From assembly GCA_902761655.1 (NCBI GenBank), contig CACWLD010000013.1:10743-46062 (forward strand): DNA of 35,320 nt, in the 5' to 3' direction. This DNA comes from an uncultured Bacteroidia bacterium. GTDB taxonomy: Bacteria > Bacteroidota > Bacteroidia > Bacteroidales > UBA932. The notes beneath the pieces are model-generated. The model made no database searches. It saw only the letters and a program-made list of their open reading frames with translations, and had not been told where the DNA came from. Position numbers and translations under genes: made by a program. Each line of letters opens with the position of its first letter. The first letter of the stretch is position 1. Below, in pieces: positions 1 to 35,320 of the stretch.

Positions 1-325
1 GCTTGAGCGTCAGGTCTCCGGAGGCCCTGCTCCAGGTATCCTCAACGTCAAAGACTACGCCTGACACTTCAATCTGCGCAGCCGCTACGGTCGCATCCTT
101 TGTGCTGGAAAGCGACGAATAGGGGGCATAGAATTCAGTGGCCATCCCATCGTGCCATATCTGCACCTGGACGGGAGCAGACTGGCTCACAATGGCGCCT
201 GAAGGGGTGGAAAGCACTACTCCCCACTCACTATCTCCGCTCTTCTGGAAGATGTCTTCCGGAGCGTTCGATGAACACGAAATGGCAACCATTACAGTTG
301 CCATAAGAATGAAAAAACGATTCAT
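1..325 (-). CDS. putative lipoprotein, 3' part missing (cut by window edge)
   Basis: The frame is open from an ATG at 325-323 to the window edge, giving 108 residues and no stop, so the gene continues beyond position 1. The N-terminus begins MNRFFILMATVMVAISC, a short hydrophobic signal peptide with a lipobox ending at Cys17, so this is very probably a lipoprotein exported by Sec and lipidated by Lgt. The rest (EDIFQKSGDSEWGVVLSTP and onward) is rich in Ser, Val and Asp, looks beta-structured and extracellular, and matches no family I recognise. It starts 21 bp after the gpmI stop on the same strand, with no -7 box visible in that gap, so it may be read through from gpmI. A bacterial surface or periplasmic protein is as far as the sequence goes. 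Confidence 0.7.
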   Translation of the reverse strand, partial: MNRFFILMATVMVAISCSSNAPEDIFQKSGDSEWGVVLSTPSGAIVSQSAPVQVQIWHDGMATEFYAPYSSLSSTKDATVAAAQIEVSGVVFDVEDTWSRASGDLTLK

Positions 326-346
326 ATGTATTAATTAGTGGTGTGG

Positions 347-1867
347 CTAAATCAACGGCTCCGCCGTCATCAGCTCAGGCTGAGGGATTCCCATCAGCTT
401 GAGGATGGTAGGAGCCACGTTGCACAGTGCACCGTCCTTGACTTCCTTTACGGAAGGCTCGTTGATGACAATGAACTGCACCTCGTTGAGTGAGTGGGCG
501 GTGTTGGGGCTGCCGTCCTCGTTCACTGCATAGTCTGCGTTGCCGTGGTCAGCGGTAAGGAGCACTACATAGTCGTGGTTGATGGCTGCGGTAACAACGG
601 CCTCTACACATCCGTCAATGCATCCTACAGCGTTCTTGATGGCTTTGTATACGCCTGTGTGGCCCACCATATCGCCGTTGGCAAAGTTCAGGATGATCAT
701 GTCGTTCTTCTCCGTGCGGATAGCCTCTACAAGCTTGTCCGTAACCTCAATTGCGCTCATCTCCGGCTGGAGGTCATAGGTGGCAACCTTGGGGGAATTC
801 ACAAGGATACGGTCCTCGTTCTGGAACGGGGTCTCGCGGCCGCCGTTGAAGAAGAATGTCACGTGAGCGTATTTCTCGGTCTCAGCGATGCGGAGCTGGT
901 GCTTTCCGGCGGCTGCTACGGTCTCTCCAAGGGTCTGGACAACCTCTTCCTTGTCAAAGAGGATGTGGAGGCCGGTGAATGAAGCGTCGTAAGGAGTGAG
1001 GCAGCAGTAGTACAGAGGGATGGTGTGCATACCCTCGTCCGGCATATCGTTCTGGGTGAGGACGTTGGTGAGCTCGCGGGCGCGGTCATTACGGAAGTTG
1101 AAGAAGATGATGGCGTCGCCTTCCTCAATCTTTGCCTTGGGCTCTCCGTTGGCGCGGGTGATTACTATAGGCTTTACGAACTCGTCAGTTACGTCTGCGT
1201 CGTATGAAGCCTGGATACCTTCAGCTGCAGTGAAGAACTTGTCTCCCTTGCCGTCTACAAGCATATCGTATGCATCCTTGATGCGGTTCCACCTCTTGTC
1301 GCGGTCCATTGCATAGAAACGGCCGCATACTGTTGCAATCTCTCCGGTGGTCTCCGCCATCTTGCCCTCAAGTTCCTCAAGGAAGCCTTTTCCGCTGCGC
1401 GGATCCGTGTCGCGTCCGTCCATAAAGCAGTGTACGAACACCTTGTCAAGGCCCTGTCTCTTGGCCTCTGCAAGGAACTCATAGAGGTGCTCCAATGAAG
1501 AGTGAACGCCACCGTTTGAGGTAAGACCCATAAAATGGAGTTTCTTGCCGCTCATCTTTACATATTCGTAGGCGGCCTTGATCTCCTTGTTCTCCAGGAG
1601 GGCGTGCTTCCTGCAGGCCATATTTATCTTTACCAGGTCCTGGTAAACGACGCGTCCGGCGCCAAGGTTCATATGTCCCACCTCAGAGTTTCCCATCTGT
1701 CCGTCAGGAAGGCCTACATATTCTCCGCAGGCCTGCAGATGTGAGAACGGGTACTTTGCCCTGAGTGAATCAATGAATGGTGTTCCCTGTGTATATATAG
1801 CGTTGGAAGCATCTTTACGGCCTTCTCCCCAGCCGTCCAGGATCATAAGAAGAACTTTTCTGTTCAT
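347..1867 (-). CDS. gpmI: 2,3-bisphosphoglycerate-independent phosphoglycerate mutase
   Basis: Interconverts 3- and 2-phosphoglycerate in cytosolic glycolysis and gluconeogenesis using two Mn ions and a phosphoserine intermediate. The 506-residue length is normal for the family. Visible signatures are the N-terminal DGWG (11-14), the catalytic-serine segment [14 protein letters not shown] with Ser61, [11 protein letters not shown] in the phosphotransferase domain, and the C-terminal alkaline-phosphatase-superfamily metal motif TADHGNAD followed by TAHSLNEV. The ATG at 1867 gives the canonical [14 protein letters not shown] start. The gene is divergent from rnr, and a TAAATTTG -7 box at 1906-1913 (minus strand) lies about 38 nt upstream. 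The truncated lipoprotein gene follows 21 bp downstream. One of the three CATG sites in the window (698-701) lies here, in an Asp-Met codon pair. Confidence 0.97.
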
Positions 1868-1881
1868 ATCGTAATATTTGT

Positions 1882-1889
1882 TATATTTG
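1882..1889 (+). promoter_or_regulatory. -7 box for rnr
   Basis: TATATTTG matches the Bacteroidetes primary sigma -7 consensus TAnnTTTG and lies 30 nt before the rnr ATG. No clear TTG -33 element is seen at the usual spacing. Confidence 0.65.
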
Positions 1890-1905
1890 CTTTAATAAAA
1901 TTACG

Positions 1906-1913
1906 CAAATTTA
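1906..1913 (-). promoter_or_regulatory. -7 box for gpmI
   Basis: On the minus strand this reads TAAATTTG, matching TAnnTTTG, 38 nt before the gpmI ATG. It lies closer to rnr than the rnr box does, so the two divergent transcripts would overlap at their 5' ends inside the 52-bp gap. Confidence 0.6.
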
Positions 1914-1919
1914 CACAAT

Positions 1920-3905
1920 ATGAAACGAAAAAAGAATCCCTCCAAGTTGGGAAAATCCAGAAAACCAAGAAAATCATTCAGCGTACTGACGGGAAAGGTT
2001 CAGATGACCCGGGACGGATTCGTTTTTGTGATTGTCGACGGCCAGGATGACGACATCTTTGTCAAGGCTTCCAAGACCAGGCACGCCCTTCACGGAGACA
2101 TAGTGAAGGTTGCCGTGACCAAGGAAAAGTCTGACAGGCAGCGCCGTGAGGGAGAAATCGTGGAGATCGTGGAACACTCCAAGATACCTTTCGTGGGCAT
2201 CCTCCACGTTGCAGGATTCCAGGCCTGGGTGCTTATGCAGTCCCGCACAATGCCCTATGACATCCTCATAGACGCAGAAGAAGTAAAGGCCAAGGGCATC
2301 AAGAGCGGGATGAAGGTTGCCGCCGCCGTGGACGGCTGGGACCGCAAGGCAACTGCCCCGTTCGGCCACATAGTGGACGTACTGGGCAAGCCGGGGGACA
2401 ACGATACGGAAATGCACGCCATCCTCACGGAATTCGGCCTGCCGTACCGCTTTGAGCCTGACGTGGAGAAAGAAGCGGCTTCCATCAAGCCCGACATCAC
2501 CCCCGATGACATAAAGGGCCGCCGCGACTTCCGCGACACCTTCACCTTCACAATCGACCCTGCCGATGCCAAGGACTTTGACGACGCCCTCTCCTACAAG
2601 CCGCTGGGCAACGGCCTCATAGAGGTAGGCGTCCACATTGCGGACGTTTCATATTATGTAAAGCCCGATACCCTGATTGACAAGGAAGCCCAGGCGCGCG
2701 GCACTTCCGTCTACCTTGTAGACCGCACCGTGCCTATGCTCCCTGAAAAACTCAGCAACAACCTCTGCTCCCTGCGTCCCGGAGAGGACAAACTCACCTT
2801 CTCCGCCGTATTCGAGATGACGCCTAAGGGCAAGGTTGTGAACCGCTGGTTCGGCCGCACCATTATCTGTTCTGACCACCGCCTGGACTACGACCAGGCT
2901 CAGGTCATCATAGAAAAGGCGGCCTCCCCTTCCGAAGACTATAAGCCGGAAATGCTGGACACCGCCATCTCCACCCTCTGGGGCATTGCCAAGATCCTCA
3001 GGGAGAAGCGCTTCAAGCTTGGCGCCATCAGTTTTGAAAGGCCGGAGATGAAGGTGGAAGTGGATGCCAACGGAAAGCCACTACGCGTTTACCAGAAGAT
3101 CTCCAAGGAAGCCAACTGGCTCATAGAGGAGTTTATGCTTCTGGCAAACCGCTCCGTGGCGGAATTCGTAGCTGCCAAGGGCAAGACAATGGTCTACCGT
3201 ATCCACGCAGAGCCCAACGAGCAGAAGATAATGGACCTCAAGGCCTTCGCCAAGAACTTCGGCTACAAGATGGGAGACATCTCCAACCCCAAGGCCGTGG
3301 CCGGTTCCCTGAACGAACTCCTTGACAAGGCAAAGGGAACGCCGGAGCACGACGCCCTTGAACTGCTCTCCCTCAGGGCAATGTCAAAGGCCATATACAG
3401 CACCGAGAACATTGGCCACTACGGCCTCGCATTCCCCTGCTACACCCATTTCACGTCGCCTATCCGCCGCTACCCTGACACAATGGTGCACCGCCTCCTT
3501 GGCCTTTATCTGGACGATGCCAAGAACCAGAACCAGGAGTACTACGAGAAGCAGTGCAAGCACGCTTCGGAACGCGAAGCCCTTGCCGCCGATGCGGAAA
3601 GGGCCAGCGTCAAGTATAAGCTGGTTGAGTTTATGATGGACAAGATTGGCCAGGAATTCGACGGAACCGTATCCGGAATAACGGAGTGGGGAATGTACGT
3701 GGAAATAGCCCCCACCAAGATAGAGGGTATGGTTCCCCTCCGCGAAATCCGTTCGGACTTCTTTGAATTCGACGAGAAGCGTTACCGCCTTGTGGGAAAG
3801 AGAACGCACAAGGTGTTCCTTTTGGGAGACCCTGTGCGTATTCGTGTAAAAGACGCAAACCTGGAGCAGAAGCTCCTGGATTACGAACTTGTAGAGGAAG
3901 TCTAA
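1920..3905 (+). CDS. rnr: ribonuclease R (RNB/S1 3'-5' exoribonuclease)
   Basis: Processive 3'-5' exoribonuclease of the RNase II/R family, which degrades structured RNA and helps clear tmRNA-tagged messages; smpB lies elsewhere in this window. The order of domains is a basic N-terminal tail (MKRKKNPSKLGKSRKPRKS), two cold-shock-like OB folds (about 20-180), the RNB domain with the metal-binding DPADAKDFDDA segment at residues 213-223, and a C-terminal S1 domain (about 577-655, FDGTVSGITEWGMYVEI). At 661 residues it is somewhat short for the family because the N-terminal helix-turn-helix and the lysine-rich C-tail are reduced. The ATG at 1920 lies 30 nt after a TATATTTG box. The stop codon interlocks with that of the convergent peptidase gene (3902-3905). 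Confidence 0.95.
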   Translation: MKRKKNPSKLGKSRKPRKSFSVLTGKVQMTRDGFVFVIVDGQDDDIFVKASKTRHALHGDIVKVAVTKEKSDRQRREGEIVEIVEHSKIPFVGILHVAGFQAWVLMQSRTMPYDILIDAEEVKAKGIKSGMKVAAAVDGWDRKATAPFGHIVDVLGKPGDNDTEMHAILTEFGLPYRFEPDVEKEAASIKPDITPDDIKGRRDFRDTFTFTIDPADAKDFDDALSYKPLGNGLIEVGVHIADVSYYVKPDTLIDKEAQARGTSVYLVDRTVPMLPEKLSNNLCSLRPGEDKLTFSAVFEMTPKGKVVNRWFGRTIICSDHRLDYDQAQVIIEKAASPSEDYKPEMLDTAISTLWGIAKILREKRFKLGAISFERPEMKVEVDANGKPLRVYQKISKEANWLIEEFMLLANRSVAEFVAAKGKTMVYRIHAEPNEQKIMDLKAFAKNFGYKMGDISNPKAVAGSLNELLDKAKGTPEHDALELLSLRAMSKAIYSTENIGHYGLAFPCYTHFTSPIRRYPDTMVHRLLGLYLDDAKNQNQEYYEKQCKHASEREALAADAERASVKYKLVEFMMDKIGQEFDGTVSGITEWGMYVEIAPTKIEGMVPLREIRSDFFEFDEKRYRLVGKRTHKVFLLGDPVRIRVKDANLEQKLLDYELVEEV

Positions 3906-5890
3906 AGCAGGCCCCTTCCGCGGAGGAACGGCTCTGACTGTGGCTCCCTGCCGCGGAACTGCTTGAACAGGGTCATAGCCTCTTCTGAACCGCCTTTCTC
4001 AAGGAAGGTTTCCTTGAACTTTTTGGCCAGTTCCTTGTCCCATACTCCGTTGGGGGATTCCTCAAAGGCCGCGAAAGCGTCCTTGTCAATGACCTCTGCC
4101 CAGAGATAGCCATAGTATCCTGCGCTGTAGCCACCGCCAAAGATGTGGTTGAAGTAAGATGTGCGGTAGCGCGGGATAATCTCGTCTATCAGGCCCATCT
4201 CCTTGCAGACCTTTGCCTCGAATTCATCTATGTCAATACCTTCTACGCTGCTCAGTTCGTGCCATTTCATATCCAGGATGGAAGCGGCGCAGAGCTCGGT
4301 TGTGGTAAAGCCCTGGTTGAACTTGGAAGAGTTGATGATCTTCTGGACAAGCTCCTGGGGGATGACCTCTCCTGTCTGGTAGTGCTTTGCGTACTGGGCG
4401 AGCAGTTCGGGCTGGAAAGCCCAGTTCTCGTTGAACTGGGAGAATGTCTCCACAAAGTCACGGGTTACGCTGGTGCCGCTTACGGAAGGATAGTGGCACT
4501 TGGTAAGGAGTCCGTGAAGTGCGTGGCCGAACTCGTGGAATGCGGTCTCAACCTCGTCTACGGTGAGCAATGCAACGCCGTTCTCGTCAGGAGAAGTGAA
4601 GTTTGCAACATTGCAGATGATGGGACGCACCTCGTTGCCGTTAGCATCGAAGTACTGGTCGCGGAAATTGTTCATCCACGCGCCGCCTCTCTTGCTGGAA
4701 CGGGGGAAATAGTCGCTGGAGAATATTCCAAGCAGGTTTCCGTTCTCATCGGTCACTTTGTAGACAATTACCTCAGGATTGTATTTAGGAACGTCTGGAA
4801 GTTCTTCTACATTTACTCCATAGAGGGTCTTTGCGGCCAGGAAGACACCCTTGCGCACGTTGTTGACCTCGAAGTAAGGCTTGGTCATCTCCTCGTCCAG
4901 GGCGTATTTCTGCTGGCGGACTTTCTCTGAATAGTACCACCAGTCCCAAGGCTCGATCTTGAAACCGGCGATCTTCTCCATATCGGCAACTTCTTCCTTT
5001 GCCCTGATTACGGCCGCCTTCATTATTCCGTCAAGGAACTCGTCAACGGTCTGGTGGTCGTGGGCCATCTTGTTGGCCAGGAGGAAGTCTGCGGAGTTGT
5101 CATATCCCATAAGCTTGGCCTTGCGGGTGCGGAGGTCCATAAGCTTGAGGAAGAGTTCGCGGTTGTCATACTCGTTGCCGTTGTGTCCCCTTGAAGAGTA
5201 AGCCTTGAACATACGCTCGCGAAGGGCCCTGTCTTCAGTGGTTGTCATAGCGGTGGGGTATGCGGATACCGAGATGCCAAACTCCTCCTTGAAGGCATTG
5301 TTCTCTGCCAACAGGTTGGTACTCAGCTTGTTGCTTACGGTTGACATCTCCGTATTTATCTTGCGGAGTTCCTCCTGGTCTGCATCGCTGAGGCCGATGC
5401 CGTTGCGCTCGAAAGCCTCGTAGAGTTTCTTGAGAACCATCTGCTGCTCACGGGTGAGGCCGCTCTGGTCTGCGTTGTAGATGGCCGCAACCCTCTCATA
5501 GAGCTTCTTGTTCATATAGATGTTGTCGCTGTGCTGGGACTGAAGCGGAGTCGCCTCCTCTATCAATGCCTCCATCTCCGGAGAGTTTTCAGTCTCCGAC
5601 AGATTGTACAGCACACCAGTAACCTTTGAGAGCAAGTTGCCGGAAAGCTCCAGCGCCGCTACGGTATTCTCAAAGGTTGGAGCCGCAGGGTTGTCCACAA
5701 TGGCCTTGATCTCGGCCTCCTGCTCTGCTATTCCGGCCTTGATCGCCGGCATATAGTGTTCTATCTTTATCTTGTCAAACGGGGGTATCCCGTAAGGGGT
5801 GTCCCACTCCTGCATAAAAGGATTCTGCTCCTTTGGGGCGCAGGAAGCCAATGCTAATGCTGCTGCCACGATAATTAATGCTTTTTTCAT
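3902..5890 (-). CDS. M3 family metallopeptidase lipoprotein (Dcp/oligopeptidase type)
   Basis: Zinc peptidase of family M3 (dipeptidyl carboxypeptidase or oligopeptidase A type) that trims short peptides. The zinc motif HEFGH is at residues 452-456 within ETAFHEFGHALHGLL, and the C-terminal FNHIFGGGYSAGYYGYLWAEV segment is the typical substrate-binding Tyr/Gly loop. The N-terminus MKKALIIVAAALALASC is a lipoprotein signal peptide, so this copy is exported and membrane-anchored, unlike cytosolic E. coli Dcp. The length of 662 residues is normal. Its ATG overlaps the stop of the upstream EEP-fold gene (ATGA, 5887-5890), so the two are translationally coupled. That places a peptidase at the end of a nuclease operon. 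It converges on rnr with a 4-bp stop-stop overlap. Confidence 0.93.
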   Translation of the reverse strand: MKKALIIVAAALALASCAPKEQNPFMQEWDTPYGIPPFDKIKIEHYMPAIKAGIAEQEAEIKAIVDNPAAPTFENTVAALELSGNLLSKVTGVLYNLSETENSPEMEALIEEATPLQSQHSDNIYMNKKLYERVAAIYNADQSGLTREQQMVLKKLYEAFERNGIGLSDADQEELRKINTEMSTVSNKLSTNLLAENNAFKEEFGISVSAYPTAMTTTEDRALRERMFKAYSSRGHNGNEYDNRELFLKLMDLRTRKAKLMGYDNSADFLLANKMAHDHQTVDEFLDGIMKAAVIRAKEEVADMEKIAGFKIEPWDWWYYSEKVRQQKYALDEEMTKPYFEVNNVRKGVFLAAKTLYGVNVEELPDVPKYNPEVIVYKVTDENGNLLGIFSSDYFPRSSKRGGAWMNNFRDQYFDANGNEVRPIICNVANFTSPDENGVALLTVDEVETAFHEFGHALHGLLTKCHYPSVSGTSVTRDFVETFSQFNENWAFQPELLAQYAKHYQTGEVIPQELVQKIINSSKFNQGFTTTELCAASILDMKWHELSSVEGIDIDEFEAKVCKEMGLIDEIIPRYRTSYFNHIFGGGYSAGYYGYLWAEVIDKDAFAAFEESPNGVWDKELAKKFKETFLEKGGSEEAMTLFKQFRGREPQSEPFLRGRGLL

Positions 5891-6996: not shown

Positions 6997-7006
6997 ATAT
7001 GCTGTC

Positions 7007-8803
7007 TCACTGTTTCAAATTGTTCCACCACCAGCTGTCCGTTGCAGGGTCCTTTGCCTCCACAGCGCTTTCTACTGCATCCGGAAGGTTGTGGAAGAAA
7101 TCTTCTCCGGTCAGTTCCTCAAGCTGGTCTATTGAAACCGCAATGCTCTGGTCAACCTTCTTCTGGGTGTACTCACGGTGCTCCAGCCAGAATCCTATCG
7201 CATTATAGTTGCCCTGATAAACCCTCAGGAGGGCCTTGTAGTAATGGTTTGGCACCGTCACTGACTTTCCTTCATTGTCCTTGACGGTTGTGACGCTGTC
7301 GTCAACCACGCATCCGGTAACCACATAGAGGGTGTCGGTGTCGTAATTCTTTGGCCAGGACCAGTCACGGACCCTTTGCTCGAGGTCTGCCCATAGCTGG
7401 CCGTTGAGGGCGTTGAGCTGAGGGGTCATATTGGTCCAGTAGAAGGTCTTGACGTTGGACTCGTAGCACAGGCGGTCCGCAGACGGAATCTGATGGCCGC
7501 GGTCGTAGGATTTGCCGTCGGAAGAAGAGTATGTGTTGTTCAGGACGGGCTGCTCACTGCTCTTGAGAAGCGGGTCAAGACCCCATTTGTCAGTCCTGGT
7601 GCCGTATCCCCAAGCCTTTCGGTAAAGAGGATATGCAACCCAGCGGGCTACGAGATGGTGGCGGTCCCAGTACATTGAGTAGTTCCTGACTTCATTGCTG
7701 CCTATGAACATTGTGTGGTGCAGGAACTGATGCTCATCACCTTCAGATGTGGCAGGGAGTTCAAGCCAAGGCTCGGAGGTGCTGTTGGCCTTATAATCGG
7801 CATATACCCTTTGAGGGGTTGGGTGCGGGATATGGGACTCATAATATGCAGGCTGGTCGTTTCCGCCGGCCTGTGGCTCTCCGTGATACTCTGAGCGCTG
7901 GGTTATGAAGGAAAGTTCGTCACCTTCCTTGAGGCCAAGCTGGGCAAAGGTCTGGTCGTTTTCGCCTTCGCTGTACTCTTTGGTCATTCCATAGACAAAC
8001 ACTTCCCCGGTCTCGTCCTTTATGTAGAAGTTTCCATACGCCTTGGCCGTATTGTCACATATCTGGGTGATTATTCCTGTAAGCCTGAACCAGTCTCCCG
8101 TACCGGTGGACTTCTCTTTGAACTGGGCTATGGTGATGGTTTCTGCCTGTATTGTAGCATCCTGGTTTATATTCACCACGGCGGTCTTGCCGCCCATTGT
8201 GAAAGTGAATTTTCCGGAACGCTCGTCGTCATCTTCGTTGGGATCTACCGTTACGGTAACAGACTGGGAATTGGCAGAGCCTTGACCGGAAGCGGGGCTG
8301 AGCTTGATCCAGGCAGACCCGGTGGATACGGTCCAGTCTTCAGTGGCCTTGAAAGTCAGGGTCTTGGTTTCGCCTTTGGCGGGGAACGACATAGATGTGG
8401 CCGACGGCTTCAGCTCCCCTTGAGAAACGTAGGCCTCCTGTGAAACTGTAAGTTTAGTTGTCACTGTGTTGCTGCCTTTCCCGGTAAAGGTAACCGTTGC
8501 GTTGCGTGCTTCGCCCTTGTTTGCCTGGACTGTCACTTTCACCACGGCACCACTTCTGGAAACGCCTCCGCCGGTGATGTTGACACTGGCCCAGTCAGCG
8601 TCGGACTGGGCGGTCCAGTTGCAGTTGGTGGTCACGGTAACCTCTTTGCTTTCCGCTCCGCTGGAAAAAGACAGGCTTGCCGGGGACACCGCAACGGACG
8701 CTGCCTCCTGCTGCTGGCCTGATCCGTTGTTCTCCGGCTCGCTGCAGGAAACAAGCATAGACACGGCCGCCATCACGGCTATTGTAAATTGTCTGAGTTT
8801 CAT
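7007..8803 (-). CDS. secreted DNA/RNA non-specific endonuclease lipoprotein with BACON and OB-fold domains
   Basis: Surface or periplasmic nuclease of the NUC (Serratia nuclease-like, beta-beta-alpha metal) family, 598 residues. The ATG at 8803 is chosen over an in-frame TTG at 8830 because that TTG lies inside the -7 box. Order of domains: lipoprotein signal with Cys20 (MLVSC); two BACON beta-sandwich domains (about 36-123 and 130-215); an OB-fold-like domain (about 222-320, WFRLTGIITQICDNTAKAYGNFYIKD) like those in secreted nucleases of the YhcR type; and the NUC domain (about 350-598). The catalytic DRGH is at 434-437 with general base His437. The Mg-ligand Asn467 in NMTPQLNALN sits exactly 30 residues later, as in Serratia nuclease. 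It leads an operon with the EEP hydrolase and the M3 peptidase. Active-site residues are intact. Confidence 0.92.
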   Translation of the reverse strand: MKLRQFTIAVMAAVSMLVSCSEPENNGSGQQQEAASVAVSPASLSFSSGAESKEVTVTTNCNWTAQSDADWASVNITGGGVSRSGAVVKVTVQANKGEARNATVTFTGKGSNTVTTKLTVSQEAYVSQGELKPSATSMSFPAKGETKTLTFKATEDWTVSTGSAWIKLSPASGQGSANSQSVTVTVDPNEDDDERSGKFTFTMGGKTAVVNINQDATIQAETITIAQFKEKSTGTGDWFRLTGIITQICDNTAKAYGNFYIKDETGEVFVYGMTKEYSEGENDQTFAQLGLKEGDELSFITQRSEYHGEPQAGGNDQPAYYESHIPHPTPQRVYADYKANSTSEPWLELPATSEGDEHQFLHHTMFIGSNEVRNYSMYWDRHHLVARWVAYPLYRKAWGYGTRTDKWGLDPLLKSSEQPVLNNTYSSSDGKSYDRGHQIPSADRLCYESNVKTFYWTNMTPQLNALNGQLWADLEQRVRDWSWPKNYDTDTLYVVTGCVVDDSVTTVKDNEGKSVTVPNHYYKALLRVYQGNYNAIGFWLEHREYTQKKVDQSIAVSIDQLEELTGEDFFHNLPDAVESAVEAKDPATDSWWWNNLKQ

Positions 8804-8827
8804 ATAGGATAAGTATATTGTATCCCT

Positions 8828-8835
8828 CAAATATA
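8828..8835 (-). promoter_or_regulatory. -7 box for the nuclease operon
   Basis: Minus strand TATATTTG, 24 nt before the ATG at 8803 and just downstream of the terminator of the preceding operon. It overlaps the TTG that would otherwise extend the nuclease reading frame, which helps fix the start. Confidence 0.65.
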
Positions 8836-11278: not shown

Positions 11279-14200
11279 TTAGTTGAACATATAACGGAGA
11301 CCAAGCTGGATCTGCCAGGTATTGTAGATAGAAGAAGCATACCTGTAGGTGTGGTCGCTGTTACCGGAGAAGGAATAAACAGGAGCGACTGTAGAGCTGA
11401 TTGACTCTGCGTTGGTGCAGTGGAGAAGCTTGCCGCTGTTGCAGTCGAGGATGCTGGGAACACCCCACTTGGGATTGAACAGGTTGTTGAAGTTCAGGAA
11501 GTCAACAGAGAACTGGAACTTGTGAACTGACTTGCCGGTCTTGAACTGGAAGTCCTGGGCAACGCGAAGGTCAAAGTGGTGAACCCAAGGAGCGCGGGCG
11601 CTGTAGGCCTCGGCATACTGTCCCTTGTGGCTGCGAAGGTAGCTGTCCTGCTGAACGAAGTTCCAGAAAGCCTGCATATCGTCTGCGGAAGCCCACTTGA
11701 GCTCGTCCGGTGTGTTGGGGATGTAGATGAGGTCGTAAGCGGAACCGTCGCCGTTGATGTCTGCGTCATACAAGAAGGAATATCCGTTGGAAGAATAGCC
11801 CTCGTACATCAGGGAAACGTGGGTGTCGAAACCTATCTTGGTCCTGTTGGTCCAGTTGATGGAACCGATCACACGGTCAGGAACTACGTAAGAAGACCTC
11901 TGGAGGGTGGCGAACTCAGGTCCGTTCACTGTGTAGAGGGAGGTGTATGCAGAGGAAGCAGCGCTACCAGGCATACCGGTGATCTCCTTGGACTCAGTGC
12001 GGGTGTAAGCAGCCATAATGCTGAGGTTCTCAAGAGGCTGGGCGTTAATGGTTATGTTAGCTGAATAACCGTAGCCTTCCCTTGTGTTGGTAAGAACGAA
12101 AGCATTGGTGCTCTGATACTTATATTTAGCAGGGTAGATGAGGCGGTTGTCTGCGCCAAGCATCCTGTCCCAACTGTCAGAAGGCATAATGTTGTAGTTT
12201 GTAAGCCTTACTCCGTAGATGGTCTTGTTGAAGATACCCTCGGCAGTAACGGTCAGAGGGAAGCTTACAGGAAGCTGATAGTCGAATGCGAGAGAAACCT
12301 TTGCCGTTGTAGGGATCTTGAAGTTGGGGTCTACACCGTCAACCTCGCTTCCAATAACACCGTCTTTAGGATCGATGGTCTTGGGGAACATCTTAGGATC
12401 CAGTGAGTTCATCTTGTCCAGGAGGGCTGCCTTGTCAGTGATGATAGGGCCTGCGAAAGCGGCAAGGAGAGGATCAGGTGTACTGTTCTTACCCTTCCAG
12501 CTGGTGGAGATCCTGGCAACATTCTGAATCATATTGGAGTTTGTAGGCATATTGGTGAAGAACACCAGTGAAGGAAGCCTTGAGAAGAGGCCGGCGCCTC
12601 CGCGGATCTTCAGGGTGCTGTCTCCGAATACGTCCCAGGAGAAGCCCACACGTGGAGAAGTTGTCACGTGGTTTGCAGGCCATACACCTGTGTCGATGTG
12701 CCTTCCGCCGTAGTCGAGGGCCTTGATGGCGTTGTTTGTCATAATGTCCTTCTCGTCAAAGGCGAGCAGGTCGAAACGTGCGCCGTAAGTGAGCTTGAAG
12801 TTCTTGCCAATTGACCACTCGTCCTGAAGGTATGCGCCAAACTGGTTGAATGTGATCTGGGCGGTAGGGTTAGGGTTGCCGTTATAACCGTAAGTGAGGG
12901 CGATGGTCTCAGGAGCAGCCTGGTTGTAGAAGTCCTCAAGGCTCTTGTAACGGTAGTAACCTGTTCCGTTACGCATATATGCGTTGTTTGCGAACTGGTG
13001 CTCGTAGCTCAGACCAACAAGGAAGTGGTGGTTGCCAAGGTCCAGGGTGAAGTCGTCCTTGGCGGTAAGGGTGTTGTTGTAAACACCGTTGTTGTAGGTG
13101 AAGAGCTCGTATCCTGCTGAGATGTAAGGCATAATGGTTCCGGCAGTATCGGCTGTGCCGTCAAGGATGTCGATGAACGGGAACTCTGAAGAGGTTGATC
13201 CACGGACGTCGGCGATCATTGTGTAGGTTGCCAGGAACTGGTTGTGCATATTCTCGCCAATGCGGCTGTTGAGGTCAAGTGACCAGGTGTTTACGTTGTT
13301 CTGTGCGTTGTAGCAAGAGTTCACGTAAGCCATACCGTACTGGGAGAGACGGTTTCCTGAAGCGCGTGAGATGGCGTTTGAAGAAGAGCCGTTGGTCTGC
13401 TGCCAGTAAAGGTTCTGGGTGTAGTTGTAACGGAGGGCAAGACGGTTCCTCTCGTTGATGTTCCAGTCAATGCGGACAAGGACCTTCTTGTTGGTCTCTG
13501 TTCCAGGATAGTTTGTCCAGGAACCAGTGTCATATCCATAAGTGTCCTTCAGATACTTGGAAACTCCCTCGAGGTCAGAAAGCTTGGTCCTGGAGATGTA
13601 TTTATTAGGATTAGCAACTCCGTCGGTGGAGCCTCTCCACTGGTTCATTGAAGACGGTGACACGGTGTACTCACCGCTGAGGAAGAAGAACAGCTTGTTC
13701 TTGATGATAGGGCCACCAACGGTGAAGCCGTAAACGTTCTTCTGGTCTTCCTCGATCCTCTCAAGCTTGTTCTTGTCAGGATCTATGATTCCACGCATCT
13801 TGTTGTTGAAGTAATACGTGTAGGCTGTACCCTTGACGGTGTTTGTTCCGGACTTGGTGATTGCGTTTACGCTGGCGCCGATGAAGTTGGTCTGACGTAC
13901 GTCGTAAGGGGCGATCACGACCTGGACCTCCTGGAATGCATCCATTGAGATAGGGTTGCCGCCTCCGGGGAGGTTTGCGGAAAGACCGAAGTTGTTGTTG
14001 AAGTTTGCTCCGTCCACAGTAAAGTTGGTGGAACGTCCGTCGGCACCTGCGAAGCTCATTCCATTTGCATAAGGAGAGAGCTTTGCGATATCCTGGATGC
14101 TGCGGTTTACGCTAGGGAGTTCCTCCATCTGTGAAAGGGAGATGTTGGTTCCCGCACCGGTCTTGGTGGTGGTGAACTTGGATGTAGAAGCCACAACTAC

Positions 14201-14545
14201 AACCTCGTTGAGCTGCTCGGAACTCTTAAGGTTGGCATTGATCGTATAAATCTCACCCAAGAGGAGGGTCACGTCATTGTGCACCTCCGTAGCCATACCA
14301 ATGAATGAAATCTCCACTTTGTATGGACCTCCGGAACGCATACCGGTGATGGTGTAGCGACCGTCGTTGTTGGTGATTGCATAGTACTGGGTTCCGGAAG
14401 GCTCGTGGACTGCCACTACGGCAGCACCGATGAGGGGCTCTCCGAACTCATCTGCAATCTGTCCGCTCATGCTGGATGTGGTCACCTGTGCATAGGCTGC
14501 CAATCCGGCGAATAATGTCGCAAAAGCGAGCAAGAAACGTTTCAT
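11279..14545 (-). CDS. Oar-like TonB-dependent outer-membrane receptor
   Basis: Outer-membrane gated channel of 1088 residues. It has a signal peptide (1-20, ending AYAQ), a carboxypeptidase-regulatory-like sandwich (about 24-107, GQIADEFGEPLIGAAVVAV), a plug domain (about 115-240, with SVNRSIQDIAKLSPYANG and TNFTVDGANFNNNFG) and a long beta-barrel with typical extracellular-loop segments ending RYMFN. The plug wording (AGADGRSTNFTVDGANFNN; VIAPYDVRQTNFIGASVNAITKSGTN) is that of the Oar subgroup rather than SusC, and no SusD gene follows. Oar-type receptors import or display unknown large ligands. It is the first gene of an operon with the 782-residue lipoprotein, behind a TATTTTTG box at 14594-14601. 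One of three CATG sites is at 14468-14471, in the signal-proximal Ser-Met pair. Confidence 0.92.
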   Translation of the reverse strand: MKRFLLAFATLFAGLAAYAQVTTSSMSGQIADEFGEPLIGAAVVAVHEPSGTQYYAITNNDGRYTITGMRSGGPYKVEISFIGMATEVHNDVTLLLGEIYTINANLKSSEQLNEVVVVASTSKFTTTKTGAGTNISLSQMEELPSVNRSIQDIAKLSPYANGMSFAGADGRSTNFTVDGANFNNNFGLSANLPGGGNPISMDAFQEVQVVIAPYDVRQTNFIGASVNAITKSGTNTVKGTAYTYYFNNKMRGIIDPDKNKLERIEEDQKNVYGFTVGGPIIKNKLFFFLSGEYTVSPSSMNQWRGSTDGVANPNKYISRTKLSDLEGVSKYLKDTYGYDTGSWTNYPGTETNKKVLVRIDWNINERNRLALRYNYTQNLYWQQTNGSSSNAISRASGNRLSQYGMAYVNSCYNAQNNVNTWSLDLNSRIGENMHNQFLATYTMIADVRGSTSSEFPFIDILDGTADTAGTIMPYISAGYELFTYNNGVYNNTLTAKDDFTLDLGNHHFLVGLSYEHQFANNAYMRNGTGYYRYKSLEDFYNQAAPETIALTYGYNGNPNPTAQITFNQFGAYLQDEWSIGKNFKLTYGARFDLLAFDEKDIMTNNAIKALDYGGRHIDTGVWPANHVTTSPRVGFSWDVFGDSTLKIRGGAGLFSRLPSLVFFTNMPTNSNMIQNVARISTSWKGKNSTPDPLLAAFAGPIITDKAALLDKMNSLDPKMFPKTIDPKDGVIGSEVDGVDPNFKIPTTAKVSLAFDYQLPVSFPLTVTAEGIFNKTIYGVRLTNYNIMPSDSWDRMLGADNRLIYPAKYKYQSTNAFVLTNTREGYGYSANITINAQPLENLSIMAAYTRTESKEITGMPGSAASSAYTSLYTVNGPEFATLQRSSYVVPDRVIGSINWTNRTKIGFDTHVSLMYEGYSSNGYSFLYDADINGDGSAYDLIYIPNTPDELKWASADDMQAFWNFVQQDSYLRSHKGQYAEAYSARAPWVHHFDLRVAQDFQFKTGKSVHKFQFSVDFLNFNNLFNPKWGVPSILDCNSGKLLHCTNAESISSTVAPVYSFSGNSDHTYRYASSIYNTWQIQLGLRYMFN

Positions 14546-23069: not shown

Positions 23070-23723
23070 CTAGAAGAAGAATGCAAGTGAAATTACCCAG
23101 CCCTGGAAATTCTTGTTGTCCTTAAAGGCACTCATCACAAACTCATCCACGGTTTCAGGCCTGCCGTGCTCCGGAGCCTTGTAAAGGGATCCGCAGTTCA
23201 CATAATGCTTGGCTGAAACCTGCATAAAACCAAACAGGTCCAGTCCGCCTCCCCAGGCATATCCGTATTCAAGTCTCTGTATGCAGTCCCAGACATTGTT
23301 CCTTGTGATGCTAGTGCCACCCACGGCCTTTGTCTGGATCCTGTCATTGAAAGCATAGCCAACGAAAGGCTCCACAAGGGCATACGGGCGGAAAATCAGC
23401 AGGTCCGGCCCCCACTGGAGCTGGAGCGCCGCCTCAACGAAACCCATATGCAGATTGAACATTGACAATTCAACTTCATTGTTAAGGGCGTAGGTCAAGT
23501 CCGTACCCTTGACGCTGTAACTGAACTCCGGCTGAACCGCAAAGCCCAGGGCAACCGGATACTTATAGGCTATTCCGGCGCGGAACTGGGTCACGTTGTC
23601 AATGTTGAAGTCCTGGAGCTTGGCGCTGGAAGACGTGACTCCTCCAAAGACACCAACCCCTTCCTGTGCAAAAGCGGCAATTCCCGCACACAGGAATATC
23701 ATAGTTAAAAGAATCCGCTTCAT
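23070..23723 (-). CDS. predicted outer-membrane beta-barrel protein
   Basis: A 217-residue exported protein with signal MKRILLTMIFLCAGIAAFAQ (1-20), then alternating hydrophobic strands: GVGVFGGVTSSSAKLQ, QFRAGIAYKYPVALGFAVQPEFSYSVKG, SMFNLHMGFVEAALQLQWG, FRPYALVEPFVGYAF and YAWGGGLDLFGFMQVSAKHYVNCG. It ends in GWVISLAFFF, an aromatic C-terminus suited to barrel assembly. This is the pattern of small PorT/OmpX-like 8-strand barrels common in the phylum, but I cannot name a family. The ATG at 23723 is chosen for the signal peptide. It is one of only three CATG contexts in the window (23721-23724). It starts 7 bp after trxA and abuts LOG. Confidence 0.8.
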   Translation of the reverse strand: MKRILLTMIFLCAGIAAFAQEGVGVFGGVTSSSAKLQDFNIDNVTQFRAGIAYKYPVALGFAVQPEFSYSVKGTDLTYALNNEVELSMFNLHMGFVEAALQLQWGPDLLIFRPYALVEPFVGYAFNDRIQTKAVGGTSITRNNVWDCIQRLEYGYAWGGGLDLFGFMQVSAKHYVNCGSLYKAPEHGRPETVDEFVMSAFKDNKNFQGWVISLAFFF

Positions 23724-23730
23724 GGCCGGC

Positions 23731-24042
23731 CTAGAGAAGTGCCTCAAGCTGCGCTACTATGTCCTCCTTTGACACTACGCCCACCATCCTTGCAACGGGC
23801 TGTCCGCCCTTGAGGAAGATGAGGGTAGGGATGTTCCTGATACCGAACTGGGCTGCAATCTCGTCAGCGTCGTCAACGTTGCACTTGGCAACTGAAACTT
23901 TGCCTTCCATCTCTTTTGCAACCTCGTCCACTGTAGGGGAAAGAACGCGGCAGGGGCCGCACCACGATGCCCAGAAATCTATCATCACCGGCTTCTCTGA
24001 AGCCAGGATGTCATTGATATTGTTGTTAGTTACAATTTCCAT
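23731..24042 (-). CDS. trxA: thioredoxin
   Basis: Cytosolic disulfide reductase of 103 residues with the WCGPC active site at 27-31 (FWASWCGPCRVLSP) and the cis-proline in NIPTL (Pro72). No signal peptide is present, so it is not one of the phylum's periplasmic TlpA-like proteins. The ATG at 24042 gives MEIVTNNNINDIL, a normal thioredoxin opening; the upstream in-frame codons lie in promoter sequence. A TATATTTG box ends only 7 nt before the ATG and is paired with a TTG 21 nt further up, so the message is probably leaderless or nearly so. It is the first gene of the ten-gene string reaching the miaA-like gene. Confidence 0.95.
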   Translation of the reverse strand: MEIVTNNNINDILASEKPVMIDFWASWCGPCRVLSPTVDEVAKEMEGKVSVAKCNVDDADEIAAQFGIRNIPTLIFLKGGQPVARMVGVVSKEDIVAQLEALL

Positions 24043-28490: not shown

Positions 28491-28506
28491 ATATATGCCT
28501 TGTTTT

Positions 28507-29940: not shown

Positions 29941-29956
29941 TTACTACTGTATTAGG

Positions 29957-29991: not shown

Positions 29992-29997
29992 TCAATT

Positions 29998-30021
29998 GAA
30001 GGCCGGTAGAAACCGGCCTTC
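29998..30021 (-). terminator. terminator of the pgk-lgt operon
   Basis: Perfect 10-bp GC-rich stem, 29998-30007 with 30012-30021, and a 4-nt loop, starting 4 nt after the lgt TAA. On the minus strand the following sequence (AATTGAACC) is not a strong U-tract; on the plus strand the tail (ATATTTATTTCTGTTTT) is U-rich, so it may also stop antisense transcription entering lgt. Confidence 0.7.
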
Positions 30022-30025
30022 ATAT

Positions 30026-30862: not shown

Positions 30863-30863
30863 A

Positions 30864-32117
30864 TTACTCGCGGATGGCTGCTATGCCGGGGAGGTCCTTG
30901 CCCTCGATAGCCTCGAGCATTGCACCGCCGCCGGTAGATACGTAACTAACTTTCTTTGCGTAACCCATCTGGGTAACTGCTGCAACAGAATCACCGCCAC
31001 CAACAAGGGTGTAAGCTCCGTTCTCAGTAGCCTTTGCAAGGAGTTCTGCGATGCGGAGGGTTCCCTTTGCGAATGCAGGGATCTCAAATACACCTACAGG
31101 ACCGTTCCAGAGGATGGTCTTGGAATTGGCGATAACCTTCTCCCACTCCTTGAGTGTGTCAGGACCTGCGTCAACTCCCTCCCAGTCGTCAGGAATCTCG
31201 TTTGCGGGGAAGAGCTTGGTAACTGCATCGTTGGAGAACTCCTGTGTGCAGACAGCCTGGTCTGAGATGTAAACGTTCACGCCCTTTGCCTTTGCCTCCT
31301 CGAGGATTGCGAGTGCATCCGGCATAAGTTCGTCCTCGTGCAGGGAAAGACCGATCTTTCCGCCCTGGGCCTTGATGAATGTGTAACCCATTCCACCGCC
31401 GATGATAAGGTTGTCAACCTTTCCGAGGAGGTTCTTGAGAACTGCGAGCTTGGAAGAAACCTTTGCTCCGCCGATGATAGCGGTAAGAGGCTTCTGTGCG
31501 TTGTGAAGTACGTTGTCGATAGCCTTGATCTCGCCTTCCATCAGGTAGCCGAACATCTTGTCATCAGGGAAGTACTTTGCGATGAGGGCGGTTGAAGCGT
31601 GAGCCCTGTGTGCTGTTCCGAATGCGTCGTTGATGTAGCAGTCAGCGTAGGAAGCGAGCTTCTTGACGAACTCCTTCTGGCTTTCCTTTACGGCAGCCTT
31701 GGCTGCTTTCTTCTCCTCGTCGGTAGCGTCCTCTGCGAGTCCGCGGGGTTTGCCTTCCTCCTCAGCGTAGAAGCGGAGGTTCTCAAGGAGGAGAGCCTCG
31801 CCCGGCTTGAGGGCGGCTGCCTGTGCGTCTGCCTTCTGGCAGTCCTCAGCGAACTGTACGGGCACTCCGAGCTTCTCGGATACGTGGTCAACTATATGCT
31901 TGAGGGAGAACTTGGGGTTAACTCCCTTAGGGCGTCCGAGGTGGGACATAATGATAACTGATCCGCCTTCCTGAAGAACTTTCTTGAGGGTGGGGATGGC
32001 GGCCCTGATACGGGTATCGTCAGTAATTTTGAAATTCTCGTCAAGTGGAACGTTGAAATCCACGCGTACTATGGCCTTCTTTCCGGCGAAGTCATAAGAG
32101 TCGATGTACTTTTGCAT
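30864..32117 (-). CDS. pgk: phosphoglycerate kinase
   Basis: Cytosolic glycolytic enzyme making ATP and 3-phosphoglycerate from 1,3-bisphosphoglycerate and ADP, the step just before that of gpmI in the same window. The 417-residue protein has the substrate-binding start [24 protein letters not shown] in outline, [41 protein letters not shown], the hinge [10 protein letters not shown] and the nucleotide loop [10 protein letters not shown]. Length is normal. The ATG at 32117 is 33 nt after a TAAATTTG box (32150-32157). It forms an operon with lgt (1-nt gap) and diverges from the methyltransferase gene at 32184. Confidence 0.97.
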
Positions 32118-32149
32118 TTGTATAAAGTGTTAAGATTATTTCAAGTCTA

Positions 32150-32157
32150 CAAATTTA
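32150..32157 (-). promoter_or_regulatory. -7 box for pgk-lgt
   Basis: Minus strand TAAATTTG fits TAnnTTTG, 32 nt upstream of the pgk ATG, in a 66-bp divergent gap shared with the methyltransferase promoter. Confidence 0.6.
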
Positions 32158-32170
32158 CTAAAAAAACTAA

Positions 32171-32178
32171 TATCTTTG
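32171..32178 (+). promoter_or_regulatory. -7 box immediately before the methyltransferase gene
   Basis: TATCTTTG fits TAnnTTTG and ends 5 nt before the ATG at 32184, so transcription would start at or next to the start codon. No convincing TTG -33 element is visible. Confidence 0.6.
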
Positions 32179-32183
32179 TAATT

Positions 32184-33101
32184 ATGAGCATACAATATCC
32201 CGGAGAATTTTGGAAAGATTATGAGCTGGTGGACAGCGGAGCTTCCGAGAAGCTGGAAAGGTTTGGGAATTACTATATGATAAGGCCCGAACCCAAGGCC
32301 CTCTGGGACAAGACCCTCCCTGAAAGCAAGTGGGAATCAATGGCACACACGCGCTTCAAGCCCGGCGCCGGATTCGGCAAGGCCGGAAAGGAAGACAGCG
32401 GCACGTGGGAGCGCCTCAAGAAGATGGACGACCAGTGGTACATAGGCTACGGCGGCTCCCAAGGGCCGCGCTTCAACCTGCGGCTGGGCCTCACCTCCTT
32501 CAAGCACGTGGGCGTCTTCCCTGAGCAGGCTCCAAACTGGGAATATATCTACAGCAGTGTCCGCGAACTCTCCGGAGCCCTTCCCAAAGGCACGGTGCCA
32601 AAGGTGCTCAACCTGTTCGCTTACACCGGAGCGGCCTCGCTGGCGGCAAAGGCGGCCGGGGCCGACGTCACCCACCTGGACTCCGTCCGTCAGGTGGTGA
32701 CCTGGGCCAAGGCCAATATGGAGCGCAGCGGCCTTTCTGACATACGCTGGGTGGTAGAGGACGCCCTCAAGTTCGCCAAGAGGGAGGCCCGCCGCGGCAA
32801 CAAATACAACGGCATCATACTGGACCCTCCCGCATACGGCCACGGTCCCGACGGCGAGAAATGGAAACTGGACCAGTGTCTTTTCGATATGCTCAAATGT
32901 GTGGGGGAAATCCTTGAGCCGGAACACGCCTTTATGGTTCTGAACCTCTATTCCAACGGTTACTCTCCCCTCCTTGGGGAAACCACCGTGCGTGAGGCCC
33001 TTGGCGGCGCCGTCCCGGAAATGGAAAGCGGGGAGCTCGCCTTGCGTGACCGCTTCGGCAAAGCCCTCCCGCTCAGTATCTACGTTCGCGTCAAGCGCTA
33101 G
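32184..33101 (+). CDS. class I SAM-dependent methyltransferase, RlmI-like
   Basis: Cytosolic methyltransferase of 305 residues in the group related to rRNA m5C/m2G enzymes (RlmI/RlmL-like). The SAM site is VLNLFAYTGAASLAAKAAGADVTHLD (about 140-165), and motif IV is IILDPPAYGHG, with DPP as in rRNA base methyltransferases. The C-terminal part ends ALPLSIYVRVKR. It lacks an N-terminal PUA domain, so it is a short form; target RNA and base are not known. The ATG at 32184 gives MSIQYPGEFWKDYELVDSG, a normal opening for this group; in-frame codons up to 32112 precede the -7 box. The stop interlocks with that of the DUF2723 gene (33098-33101). Confidence 0.88.
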   Translation: MSIQYPGEFWKDYELVDSGASEKLERFGNYYMIRPEPKALWDKTLPESKWESMAHTRFKPGAGFGKAGKEDSGTWERLKKMDDQWYIGYGGSQGPRFNLRLGLTSFKHVGVFPEQAPNWEYIYSSVRELSGALPKGTVPKVLNLFAYTGAASLAAKAAGADVTHLDSVRQVVTWAKANMERSGLSDIRWVVEDALKFAKREARRGNKYNGIILDPPAYGHGPDGEKWKLDQCLFDMLKCVGEILEPEHAFMVLNLYSNGYSPLLGETTVREALGGAVPEMESGELALRDRFGKALPLSIYVRVKR

Positions 33102-35320
33102 TCTTTCTCCTCTATCGCACCGCCCATCGCCTTGATCATAGCCTCAAGGCTGTCCTCAGCCTCCTTTGCCAGCTCTTCCTGGCCGTTGTTGCGCAGCCTG
33201 TTGGAAAAATAGTAGAGGAAACTGGTGCACTGGTCAAAGTCGCCCTCGGCATATTTGTAGAACTCCATATAGAAGGCGCAGGCGTCCAGGAGCTCGTTCA
33301 TATAATTCCTGGCAAGGGCCAATCCCTCCTGCTCGCATCCAAGTTTCAGGTAATCCTCAATCGTGCCAATGACACTCAGATCCACGCCGGAGAGGCCTAT
33401 GGGCAATCCCTCTATAGGATAATAGCGCATCACGTCACGCCCCTTGTCAAGAAGCGTGCGGGCCCGCTCGTTCTGGCCTATCTTCATATAGAACTCTGCG
33501 CAGGTCTCGAACAAATTTGGCAGAGACATAACTCCCAGATGGGTGTAAAGGTTCTGGTAGTCAATGAAATAGTCTCCCCTTGACACGGCGTCGAACTTGA
33601 ACGTGTCCATAAGCAGGTGGTAAAGGTAATCCGGATCCACAATGCCCACGTTGGTAGAAGAAGCACCGGTCTTTACAGGGGTGAGGCGGTATGAATATCC
33701 GTCATACATCAGGTAATCCTTGACGCCAATGTTCAGGTCTCCTCCCATATTGAGCATATTGATTGGCCTGTCCCACTCGTAATTGGAGAGAAGGTCCAGG
33801 AGGAACAGTTCCGGTTTGGTCAGATAATCCTTGCCTTCCGGTATCTCAAGCACAATGTACTCCGGAATAACCTCCTCGAACATATCAGACAGGATGCCGT
33901 ACTTAAGCACGTTCTCCTTGTTGACCTGAACGGCTATCTTGCGTGACATTATGTAGTCCACCTTGGCGCCGCTCTGCAGATTGATCTTTGCGTCCGGATG
34001 GCGGAAGACGGCCATAACGTCCTTTATGTCAATCACCTGGTCACGGGTATCGTACAGGTAAACGTACTCGTTGGTTCCGTAGAGCAGCTGCTCCGGCGGA
34101 ATGCTGAGATTGAGCGGGGCGGACTTGTTGACCGCATATTTCATCTGGTCTATATGCCAGTCTGTTCCAAGCAGGGATGTGTTGCATATGCGCACGTCAG
34201 TACGGATATCCTCAACCTCCTGGGCGTACCACAGAGGGAAGGTATCGTTGTCTCCGTGGGTGATGAGTATACCGTTGGGGCCTACTGAATTCAGGTAATT
34301 GGCAGCCATTTCCACTGCTGTGCGGCGGTTGCTGCGGTCGTGGTCGTCCCAGTTCTGGGCAGCCATCAGCACGGGCACAAGCAGGCACGCCGCGGTCACT
34401 GCGGCCGCTACAGGCAGGCTTCCCTTGCCCTTGAGGGCTTCGGAAAGCCAGGAATAAAGCGCCGCCACCGCAAGCCCTATCCACATACAGAAAGAATAGA
34501 AGGATCCTGCGTAGGCGTAATCCCTCTCGCGCACCTGGAACGGGGGCTGGTTAAGATAAATCACAATGGCGATTCCCGTCATAAAGAACATCAGGAACAC
34601 CAGCCAGCAGCCCCTCTTGTCCTTGCCAAACTGGAAGAACAGGCCCAGGAGTCCAAGCAGGAACGGCAGCATATAATAATGGTTCTTGGCCTTGTTGTCC
34701 CTGAGGACGGCGGGAGCGTCGCTCTGGTCACCTAACCTCAGGTTGTCAATGGCCTTGATTCCGCTCTCCCAGTTGCCCTTGAAGATATCTCCCGGCACGG
34801 GGCTGTGGATATCGTTCTGGCGGCCGGCAAAGTTCCAGAAGAAATACCTCCAGTACATCCAGTTGAGCTGGTAGTCGAAGAAGTAGGCCAGGTTGGCCTT
34901 CATAGTGGGCTTCTTGTGCTCCGCACCGGAAATCTTGCGCCCGGTTCCCTTCATATAGCTCTCGTAGAAATCTTCATTCTGGGTTCCGGAAGAGGAAGCG
35001 CTCCACATCCTTGGGAAAAGCATCTTGCCTTCCGGCTTGTAGGTAGGAGAGAGCGGTCCCTGGGTCTTGACATACTTGCCGTTGAGCGGGGCCCAGTAGT
35101 CCTTTGTGTCAATCTCGTACGGGGCGTCGAAATACTCTCCGTAAATGAGAGGATTGCTTCCGTACTGCTCGCGTGAAAGGTATCTTACCAGCGTGAAGGC
35201 GTTGTCAGGCTGATACTCGTTGGTAGGAGTCTTTACGCTTGAGCGGATGATACAGATGCTGAACAGGGAGAAGCCGATTGTTATTGTGGTGAAGCACAGC
35301 AGGACAGTGTTCCAGAACAC
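33098..35320 (-). CDS. DUF2723 / GT117-family membrane protein, N-terminus cut by window edge
   Basis: C-terminal 740 residues of a large membrane protein. The reading frame is open to position 35320 and the first codon there is not a real start. In Bacteroidetes, DUF2723 proteins are classed as glycosyltransferase family 117 with a GT-C-like membrane part, thought to use polyprenyl-linked sugars. Here several hydrophobic helices remain (YMLPFLLGLLGLFFQF, CWLVFLMFFMTGIAIVIYL, FYSFCMWIGLAVAALYSWL). They are followed by the family hallmark GILITHGDNDTFPLWYAQEVEDIRTDVRICNTSLLGTDW (described in outline) and a soluble, partly helical TPR-like tail. Loop segment FQVRERDYAYAGSFY is also characteristic. 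It converges on the methyltransferase gene with a 4-bp stop overlap. The catalytic N-terminal part is outside the window. Confidence 0.9.
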   Translation of the reverse strand: MFWNTVLLCFTTITIGFSLFSICIIRSSVKTPTNEYQPDNAFTLVRYLSREQYGSNPLIYGEYFDAPYEIDTKDYWAPLNGKYVKTQGPLSPTYKPEGKMLFPRMWSASSSGTQNEDFYESYMKGTGRKISGAEHKKPTMKANLAYFFDYQLNWMYWRYFFWNFAGRQNDIHSPVPGDIFKGNWESGIKAIDNLRLGDQSDAPAVLRDNKAKNHYYMLPFLLGLLGLFFQFGKDKRGCWLVFLMFFMTGIAIVIYLNQPPFQVRERDYAYAGSFYSFCMWIGLAVAALYSWLSEALKGKGSLPVAAAVTAACLLVPVLMAAQNWDDHDRSNRRTAVEMAANYLNSVGPNGILITHGDNDTFPLWYAQEVEDIRTDVRICNTSLLGTDWHIDQMKYAVNKSAPLNLSIPPEQLLYGTNEYVYLYDTRDQVIDIKDVMAVFRHPDAKINLQSGAKVDYIMSRKIAVQVNKENVLKYGILSDMFEEVIPEYIVLEIPEGKDYLTKPELFLLDLLSNYEWDRPINMLNMGGDLNIGVKDYLMYDGYSYRLTPVKTGASSTNVGIVDPDYLYHLLMDTFKFDAVSRGDYFIDYQNLYTHLGVMSLPNLFETCAEFYMKIGQNERARTLLDKGRDVMRYYPIEGLPIGLSGVDLSVIGTIEDYLKLGCEQEGLALARNYMNELLDACAFYMEFYKYAEGDFDQCTSFLYYFSNRLRNNGQEELAKEAEDSLEAMIKAMGGAIEEKD

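Follow-up and report, generated by a model that had tools for sequence, protein, structure and literature searches.

The CATG sites of the window

The stretch analysed here, referred to below as the window, is 35,320 bases of DNA from an uncultured bacterium of the order Bacteroidales (G000:C13:10743-46062). It belongs to a genome, G000, that is represented by a 2,005,445-base assembly of 63 contigs with an estimated completeness of 93.68%. The window carries an assortment of genes, among them those for a phosphoglycerate mutase, RNase R, an outer-membrane receptor and an outer-membrane barrel protein, and is almost devoid of the palindrome CATG. There are exactly three such sites, starting at positions 698, 14468 and 23721, the same three that had been listed in the initial annotation:

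1-35320, no strand: CATG-depleted stretch, with 3 sites against 136 expected and 132.3 (standard deviation 8.2) after synonymous shuffling
698-701, no strand: residual CATG in the phosphoglycerate mutase gene (347-1867, minus strand; Pfam iPGM_N)
14468-14471, no strand: residual CATG in an outer-membrane receptor gene (11279-14545, minus strand; Pfam OMP_b-brl_4 and TonB_dep_Rec_b-barrel)
23721-23724, no strand: residual CATG that includes the minus-strand ATG at 23723, the first in the frame 23070-23747 (minus strand; Pfam OMP_b-brl_2), whose product is of an outer-membrane barrel family, in agreement with its earlier description as the start of a barrel protein gene

The expected number of sites is 136.2 with independent bases and 136 under a maximal-order Markov model, within the range of 130-140 estimated earlier. 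The ratio of observed to expected sites (O/E) is 0.022, the lowest of all 4-mers in the window under the Markov model, which is how underrepresentation is recognised in Type II restriction-site avoidance. The component words of CATG are frequent (CAT, 539 occurrences; ATG, 476; CATA, 254; CATC, 162; CATT, 120), and other palindromes are mostly unrestricted, both as first noticed: GAATTC is found 22 times, the next-lowest palindrome is CTAG, not mentioned there, with O/E of 0.19, and the other 14 are between 0.71 and 1.24. When synonymous codons were shuffled within 22 genes of the window, 132.3 CATG sites were obtained (standard deviation 8.2, minimum 112 in 200 shuffles), so the depletion is not due to codon use; together with the Markov expectation, this led us to reject base composition and codon use as the cause. 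In rnr, the dominant phenylalanine codon is TTC (22, versus 8 TTT), as had been said, and one of the two cited examples of TTT before ATG is found at 3630-3635 (TTTATG); the other, 3133-3138, reads TTATGC, its coordinate being off by one base.

The initial annotation saw no CATG-specific system in the window, and Pfam profiles agree: 23 of 25 frames scanned, with smaller and overlapping frames left out, have matches over the cut-off, and none of these is to a restriction-modification (R-M) family. The window also encodes, at 7007-8830, a protein that combines BACON domains with a DNA/RNA non-specific endonuclease domain.

Extent of the depletion in the genome and among relatives

The rest of the genome is depleted as well. 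GCATGC occurs 19 times in G000, versus 318 occurrences of the reversed word CGTACG. In 20 stretches of G000 (386,693 bases), there are 136 CATG sites versus 1455 expected; 12 of these stretches were selected for containing GCATGC, and the eight that were not selected for CATG have 26 sites versus 583 expected. Another 20 stretches, taken for a different reason, have 23 versus about 441. The residual sites are grouped in patches, which appear on reading to comprise variable genes and also ribosomal-protein, rpoB and EF-Tu-like genes. One run of ExbD/ExbB-like genes, identified by reading (L140:1-2260, on G000:C4), contains ten CATG in 2.3 kilobases (kb), as if recently acquired.

Relatives were sampled as 80 named loci retrieved through the RNase R gene of the window. 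All are titled Bacteroidales, Bacteroidia or Candidatus Cryptobacteroides, and many originate from ruminant or horse gut. Eight of them have O/E at or below 0.08 (L009, L023, L024, L026, L048, L057, L061, which is 3 kb long, and L078); 11 are at 0.16-0.51, and the remaining 61 at 0.53-1.21. In a tree of RNase R, built by a quick method from 77 of 81 proteins (four lacked an extracted frame), the state of O/E below 0.1 is found in nine of 77 rows and needs nine changes, a count that does not distinguish gain from loss. The proposed comparison with sister genomes finds some of them strongly depleted, and the distribution of strong CATG depletion in the clade is patchy, with repeated separate occurrence. 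The nearest relative, L001, has RNase R 91% identical to that of the window, and over 6.8 kb its CATG O/E is 0.34; the window has kept not one of its nine CATG sites, six of which read CATA there. Since the state switches between relatives as close as these, the earlier description of the depletion as long-standing needs care. One more candidate, G292, appeared depleted by its GCATGC count and was dropped after two of its stretches gave O/E of 0.50 and 0.55.

Evidence for selection on the whole word

The manner in which CATG is avoided is most clearly seen in codon context, which we counted in the window and 11 of the 20 G000 stretches, leaving out the nine richest in CATG. Histidine before G is encoded by CAT 5 times and by CAC 334 times, compared to 458 CAT and 512 CAC before other bases. 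Eighteen NNY codons end in T 593 times and in C 11 times before methionine, versus 9513 T and 19615 C elsewhere, and only three of 409 NCN codons preceding TGN end in A. All three codon phases therefore escape CATG, by different substitutions. The same bias is present in seven other depleted loci and is not seen in 20 hand-picked control loci. Histidine itself is rarer before G (frequency 0.0131, versus 0.0205 otherwise; 0.0217 and 0.0220, respectively, in the 20 control loci), and therefore some amino acids are also sacrificed to avoid CATG.

Pairwise comparisons give a similar picture. L078 and L064 are 79.6% identical, and none of the 78 CATG sites of L064 is kept in L078, versus 305 of 679 sites of 13 other palindromes (0.16-0.58 for each). 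The replacements, listed for 62 of the 78 sites, are TATG (15), CATA (10), CGTG (9), CACG (9), CAGG (6), CATC (5), CCTG (5) and CAAG (3). In the control pair L064/L052, 16 of 32 CATG sites are kept, and L057 keeps none of 19 CATG sites of L052.

The initial annotation had allowed for either selection or mutation. A mutational hot spot at CATG, such as deamination of methylated cytosine, would account for several of these facts: CATA/TATG shows the largest gain, being 1.44 times as common in depleted loci as in the controls, the window has CATA at six of the nine L001 sites, and L078 has TATG or CATA at 25 of the 78 L064 sites. C-to-T is therefore the commonest escape from CATG, which does not fit selection on the word in its pure form. 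Most of the listed escapes in L078 are nevertheless of other kinds (18 CACG/CGTG, 11 CAGG/CCTG, five CATC and three CAAG), histidine before G is preserved through a T to C change, and cytosine-C5 methyltransferases are absent from nine of 16 strongly depleted genomes (listed below), including G000. A hot spot is thus a most improbable explanation of the whole. With changes at all positions and in all codon phases, a mutational cause confined to one base is a poor fit, and decay of one modified base was rejected as the sole cause on account of the phase-wide escape and the varied replacements, with a possible contribution. The data strongly support selection on the whole CATG word, as opposed to decay of one base.

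Selection might also be exerted on RNA, by a ribonuclease that cuts CAUG. The gaps between frames in G000 are less depleted than the genes, as this would predict, with two CATG versus eight expected, very small numbers. In the seven other depleted loci, however, the gaps are depleted just as strongly (1 versus 18 expected), and a palindromic word points to a dimer acting on duplex DNA. We regard an RNA-level cause as having only a slim chance of being correct.

Time scale

Three pairs of relatives that have diverged by 10.1-10.7% keep 64-69% of the sites of 13 palindromes and 75-78% of CATG sites. Assuming that half of the site turnover took place on each lineage, O/E would recover by roughly 2-4% per 1% of lineage divergence after the pressure ends. 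At O/E of 0.02, then, the pressure would have persisted to within about 1% divergence of the present; it is probably very recent or ongoing, because site turnover would otherwise have raised O/E above this value. The same estimate bears on the idea that the depletion is left over from a restriction system that disappeared long ago. Such vestiges have a precedent, as PMC4687349 reports underrepresentation in 43.3% of 1930 cases for the sites of R-M systems that only other strains of a species encode, and the value of 0.34 in L001 also speaks for this idea. In the window, though, about 1% of lineage divergence would have sufficed to refill the sites above 0.02, judging by the turnover in relatives, and an old vestige is very unlikely.

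NlaIII-type operons in relatives

A CATG-specific, NlaIII-like system in the lineage was among the agents suggested at the outset, and operons of this type do exist in the same genus and family. The ICEA nuclease family (PF05315) has matches in two of 50 genomes and, over the cut-off, in three of 299, with a fourth match below it. The carriers are four genomes, G335, G340, G233 and G019 (G005 shares coordinates with G335, and the two were counted once); G335 and G340 are of the same genus as the genome of the window, and G233 is of the same family. In all four, the ICEA nuclease gene adjoins a gene for a D12 methyltransferase (PF02086), with the contig of G335 ending inside the nuclease gene. 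The operon in G340 and G233 consists of an additional methyltransferase gene, of PF01555 type, with 262-265 amino acids and an HPPY motif, a 226-amino acid ICEA nuclease and a 334-amino acid D12 methyltransferase. By likeness to NlaIII and HpyI, these operons are predicted to be CATG-specific. Phage relatives of the D12 enzyme of the carriers are annotated as "ulcer associated adenine specific DNA methyltransferase". A search of the ICEA protein against solved structures gave no match, and on plasmids the family is seen in one record, as a partial match.

The carriers have 1 CATG versus 112 expected (G335), 18 versus 238 (G340), 79 versus 205 (G233) and 56 versus 110 (G019). All four are therefore at O/E of 0.51 or below, where only 19 of the 80 loci lie, a suggestive association of small numbers. 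G016 has a lone D12 gene, next to the same neighbour as in G019 (acyl-CoA synthetase-like, by reading), with 26 CATG versus 60 expected and no match in a search with the ICEA profile; its state looks like that expected after loss of the nuclease.

Several other observations concern methyltransferase genes in these genomes. The G233 operon includes an additional 379-amino acid gene (L155:8610-9749), with a sub-threshold EVE match and no PADLOC match. G335 has eleven C5 methyltransferase stretches (PF00145) in a genome of about 2.3 megabases. A DpnII-like D12 gene (L104, L105, L106) is found in genomes where GATC is low (G003, 0.23; G044, 0.36) and in one where it is not (G043, 0.81). L051 has no AGCT at all (48.8 expected over the whole locus), and its genome, G047, encodes a 613-amino acid protein with two D12 stretches (L113:529-2370) in DNA that is likewise free of AGCT (0 versus 8.5 expected); this absence is a parallel to the CATG case with another word.

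The likely agent

Among known agents, a CATG-specific restriction-type system is the best candidate, and the only one that can be named, for selection that is genome-wide, affects all codon phases, is directed at a palindrome and turns on and off between relatives. We consider it probable that the lineage is under strong anti-CATG selection, likeliest through cutting by a Type II R-M system of the NlaIII/HpyI-like kind or another of the same specificity. CATG sites that escape methylation would be cut now and then, and each synonymous change that destroys a CATG would thereby be favoured. The system of G000 would then lie outside the assembly, or have been lost very recently, or belong to an enzyme family that is not recognised, the last of these being kept in view because, time after time, no system was found in depleted genomes. 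That cutting is the cause, and where the G000 system is to be sought, we infer from the foregoing.

A number of results weigh against this view. The genome search suggested in the initial annotation, for CATG methyltransferase or endonuclease genes, came back empty: G000 has no match to ICEA, to D12, to PF01555 or to C5, and all 49 possible places of the [DN]PP[YF] motif in it yield only RsmD-, TrmN6- and PrmC-like proteins as methyltransferase-like, by reading. A CATG system is therefore only proposed for this genome. ICEA-operon carriers number only four, and just one of them, G335, is among the 16 genomes found strongly depleted in sampled DNA (G000, G003, G006, G007, G009, G010, G011, G014, G335, G053, G160, G223, G225, G241, G262 and G209). 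Sampling was thin for G011 (3 kb), G262 (7 kb), G209 (8 kb) and G241 (10 kb); stretches of G160 and G223 that were selected for CATG sites or methyltransferases have more CATG (O/E up to 0.51), and G223 is placed here by a single low stretch together with its GCATGC count. In six of the 16 (G000, G007, G009, G011, G053 and G160), D12, PF01555 and C5 all lack a match over the cut-off. In the depleted genome G053, which is 99% complete, a search for D/N/S-PP-Y/F/W among 75 places revealed Type I HsdM, IIG and Eco57I-type genes in addition to housekeeping ones, with HPPY and odd motifs not searched as DNA patterns.

The methyltransferase families that do occur are poor markers of the depletion. 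D12 is found in four of the 16 genomes (G003, G006, G014 and G335, the genes of G003 and G006 being of DpnII type by reading), PF01555 over the cut-off in five (G003, G010, G223, G262 and G335) and C5 in seven (G003, G010, G014, G209, G225, G241 and G335). In a wider comparison, D12 is in mild excess, with nine of 21 genomes at O/E of 0.53 or below versus five of 29 others; the respective numbers are 4/21 versus 7/29 for PF01555 over the cut-off and 8/20 depleted or intermediate genomes versus 14/30 others for C5.

Three candidates were set aside. In G053, the Type I, IIG and Eco57I-type genes look recent and stand in CATG-bearing stretches. The D12 gene of G014 (L112), next to a PDDEXK_13 nuclease, looks newly arrived, in 3.75 kb with six CATG versus 14.5 expected, while the rest of the G014 sample has none versus 95. 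A weak PF01555 match of 469-499 amino acids is, by reading, a TrmA/RlmD-like RNA methyltransferase, found in depleted and other genomes alike. G160 encodes a 913-amino acid protein with NPPF (L157).

In another reading, the agent is an unrecognised CATG-directed nuclease or toxic DNA-binding factor, with no methyltransferase of the searched families, that hosts tolerate chiefly by having almost no sites. The six genomes without matches would be explained in this way, among them G053, where the only genes of the kind appear to be recent acquisitions. The sampled stretches of G000, however, retain 136 CATG in 387 kb, sites that would be cut by a nuclease acting unguarded, and an unusual methyltransferase, with HPPY or another odd motif, could have evaded the searches in G053 and G160. 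We take this option to be unlikely. Its broader form is unlikely too: such an agent, without any known-family methyltransferase and mobile among Bacteroidales, would have driven the repeated near-total loss of CATG in the clade, its hosts persisting mainly by clearing the word from their DNA.

With CATG-specific restriction still the favoured cause, the clade presents extreme avoidance of a word together with a natural series: relatives with strong, intermediate or no depletion, others with NlaIII-type operons, and one in which a methyltransferase stands alone at the place where a neighbour carries the operon. Within a single family it thus becomes possible to measure how fast restriction avoidance arises and fades. 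Several strongly depleted genomes, including one that is 99% complete, have no recognised methyltransferase, which suggests either a defence system still hidden or something that metagenome assembly fails to capture.

Comparison with known systems

A literature search turned up no paper on CATG depletion in Bacteroidales. The closest general parallel is Type II restriction-site avoidance (PMC4687349), in which a short palindrome is likewise selectively removed and traces are seen also in genomes with no encoded system. The present case differs in that O/E is about 0.02, the state flips among relatives and, in 15 of the 16 strongly depleted genomes, no matching system turned up. CTAG, with its low value in the window, is a depleted palindrome as well, but unlike CATG it has a low O/E (0.00-0.59) in every one of the 80 loci from relatives, and PMC4687349 reports it to be underrepresented in most tested genomes irrespective of R-M systems.

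The nearest specific counterparts are NlaIII and HpyI (iceA1 with hpyIM). The product of iceA1 is 52% identical to NlaIII (PMC2749054), and hpyIM is called CATG-specific in a title cited by the same source. The relatives of the window share with these systems the ICEA-family nuclease beside a D12 methyltransferase; they differ in the added PF01555-type gene with HPPY and, in G233, one gene more, and the genome of the window differs in that no such genes were found in it, including in the DNA flanking its sir2 gene, which corresponds to the neighbour of the system in G335.

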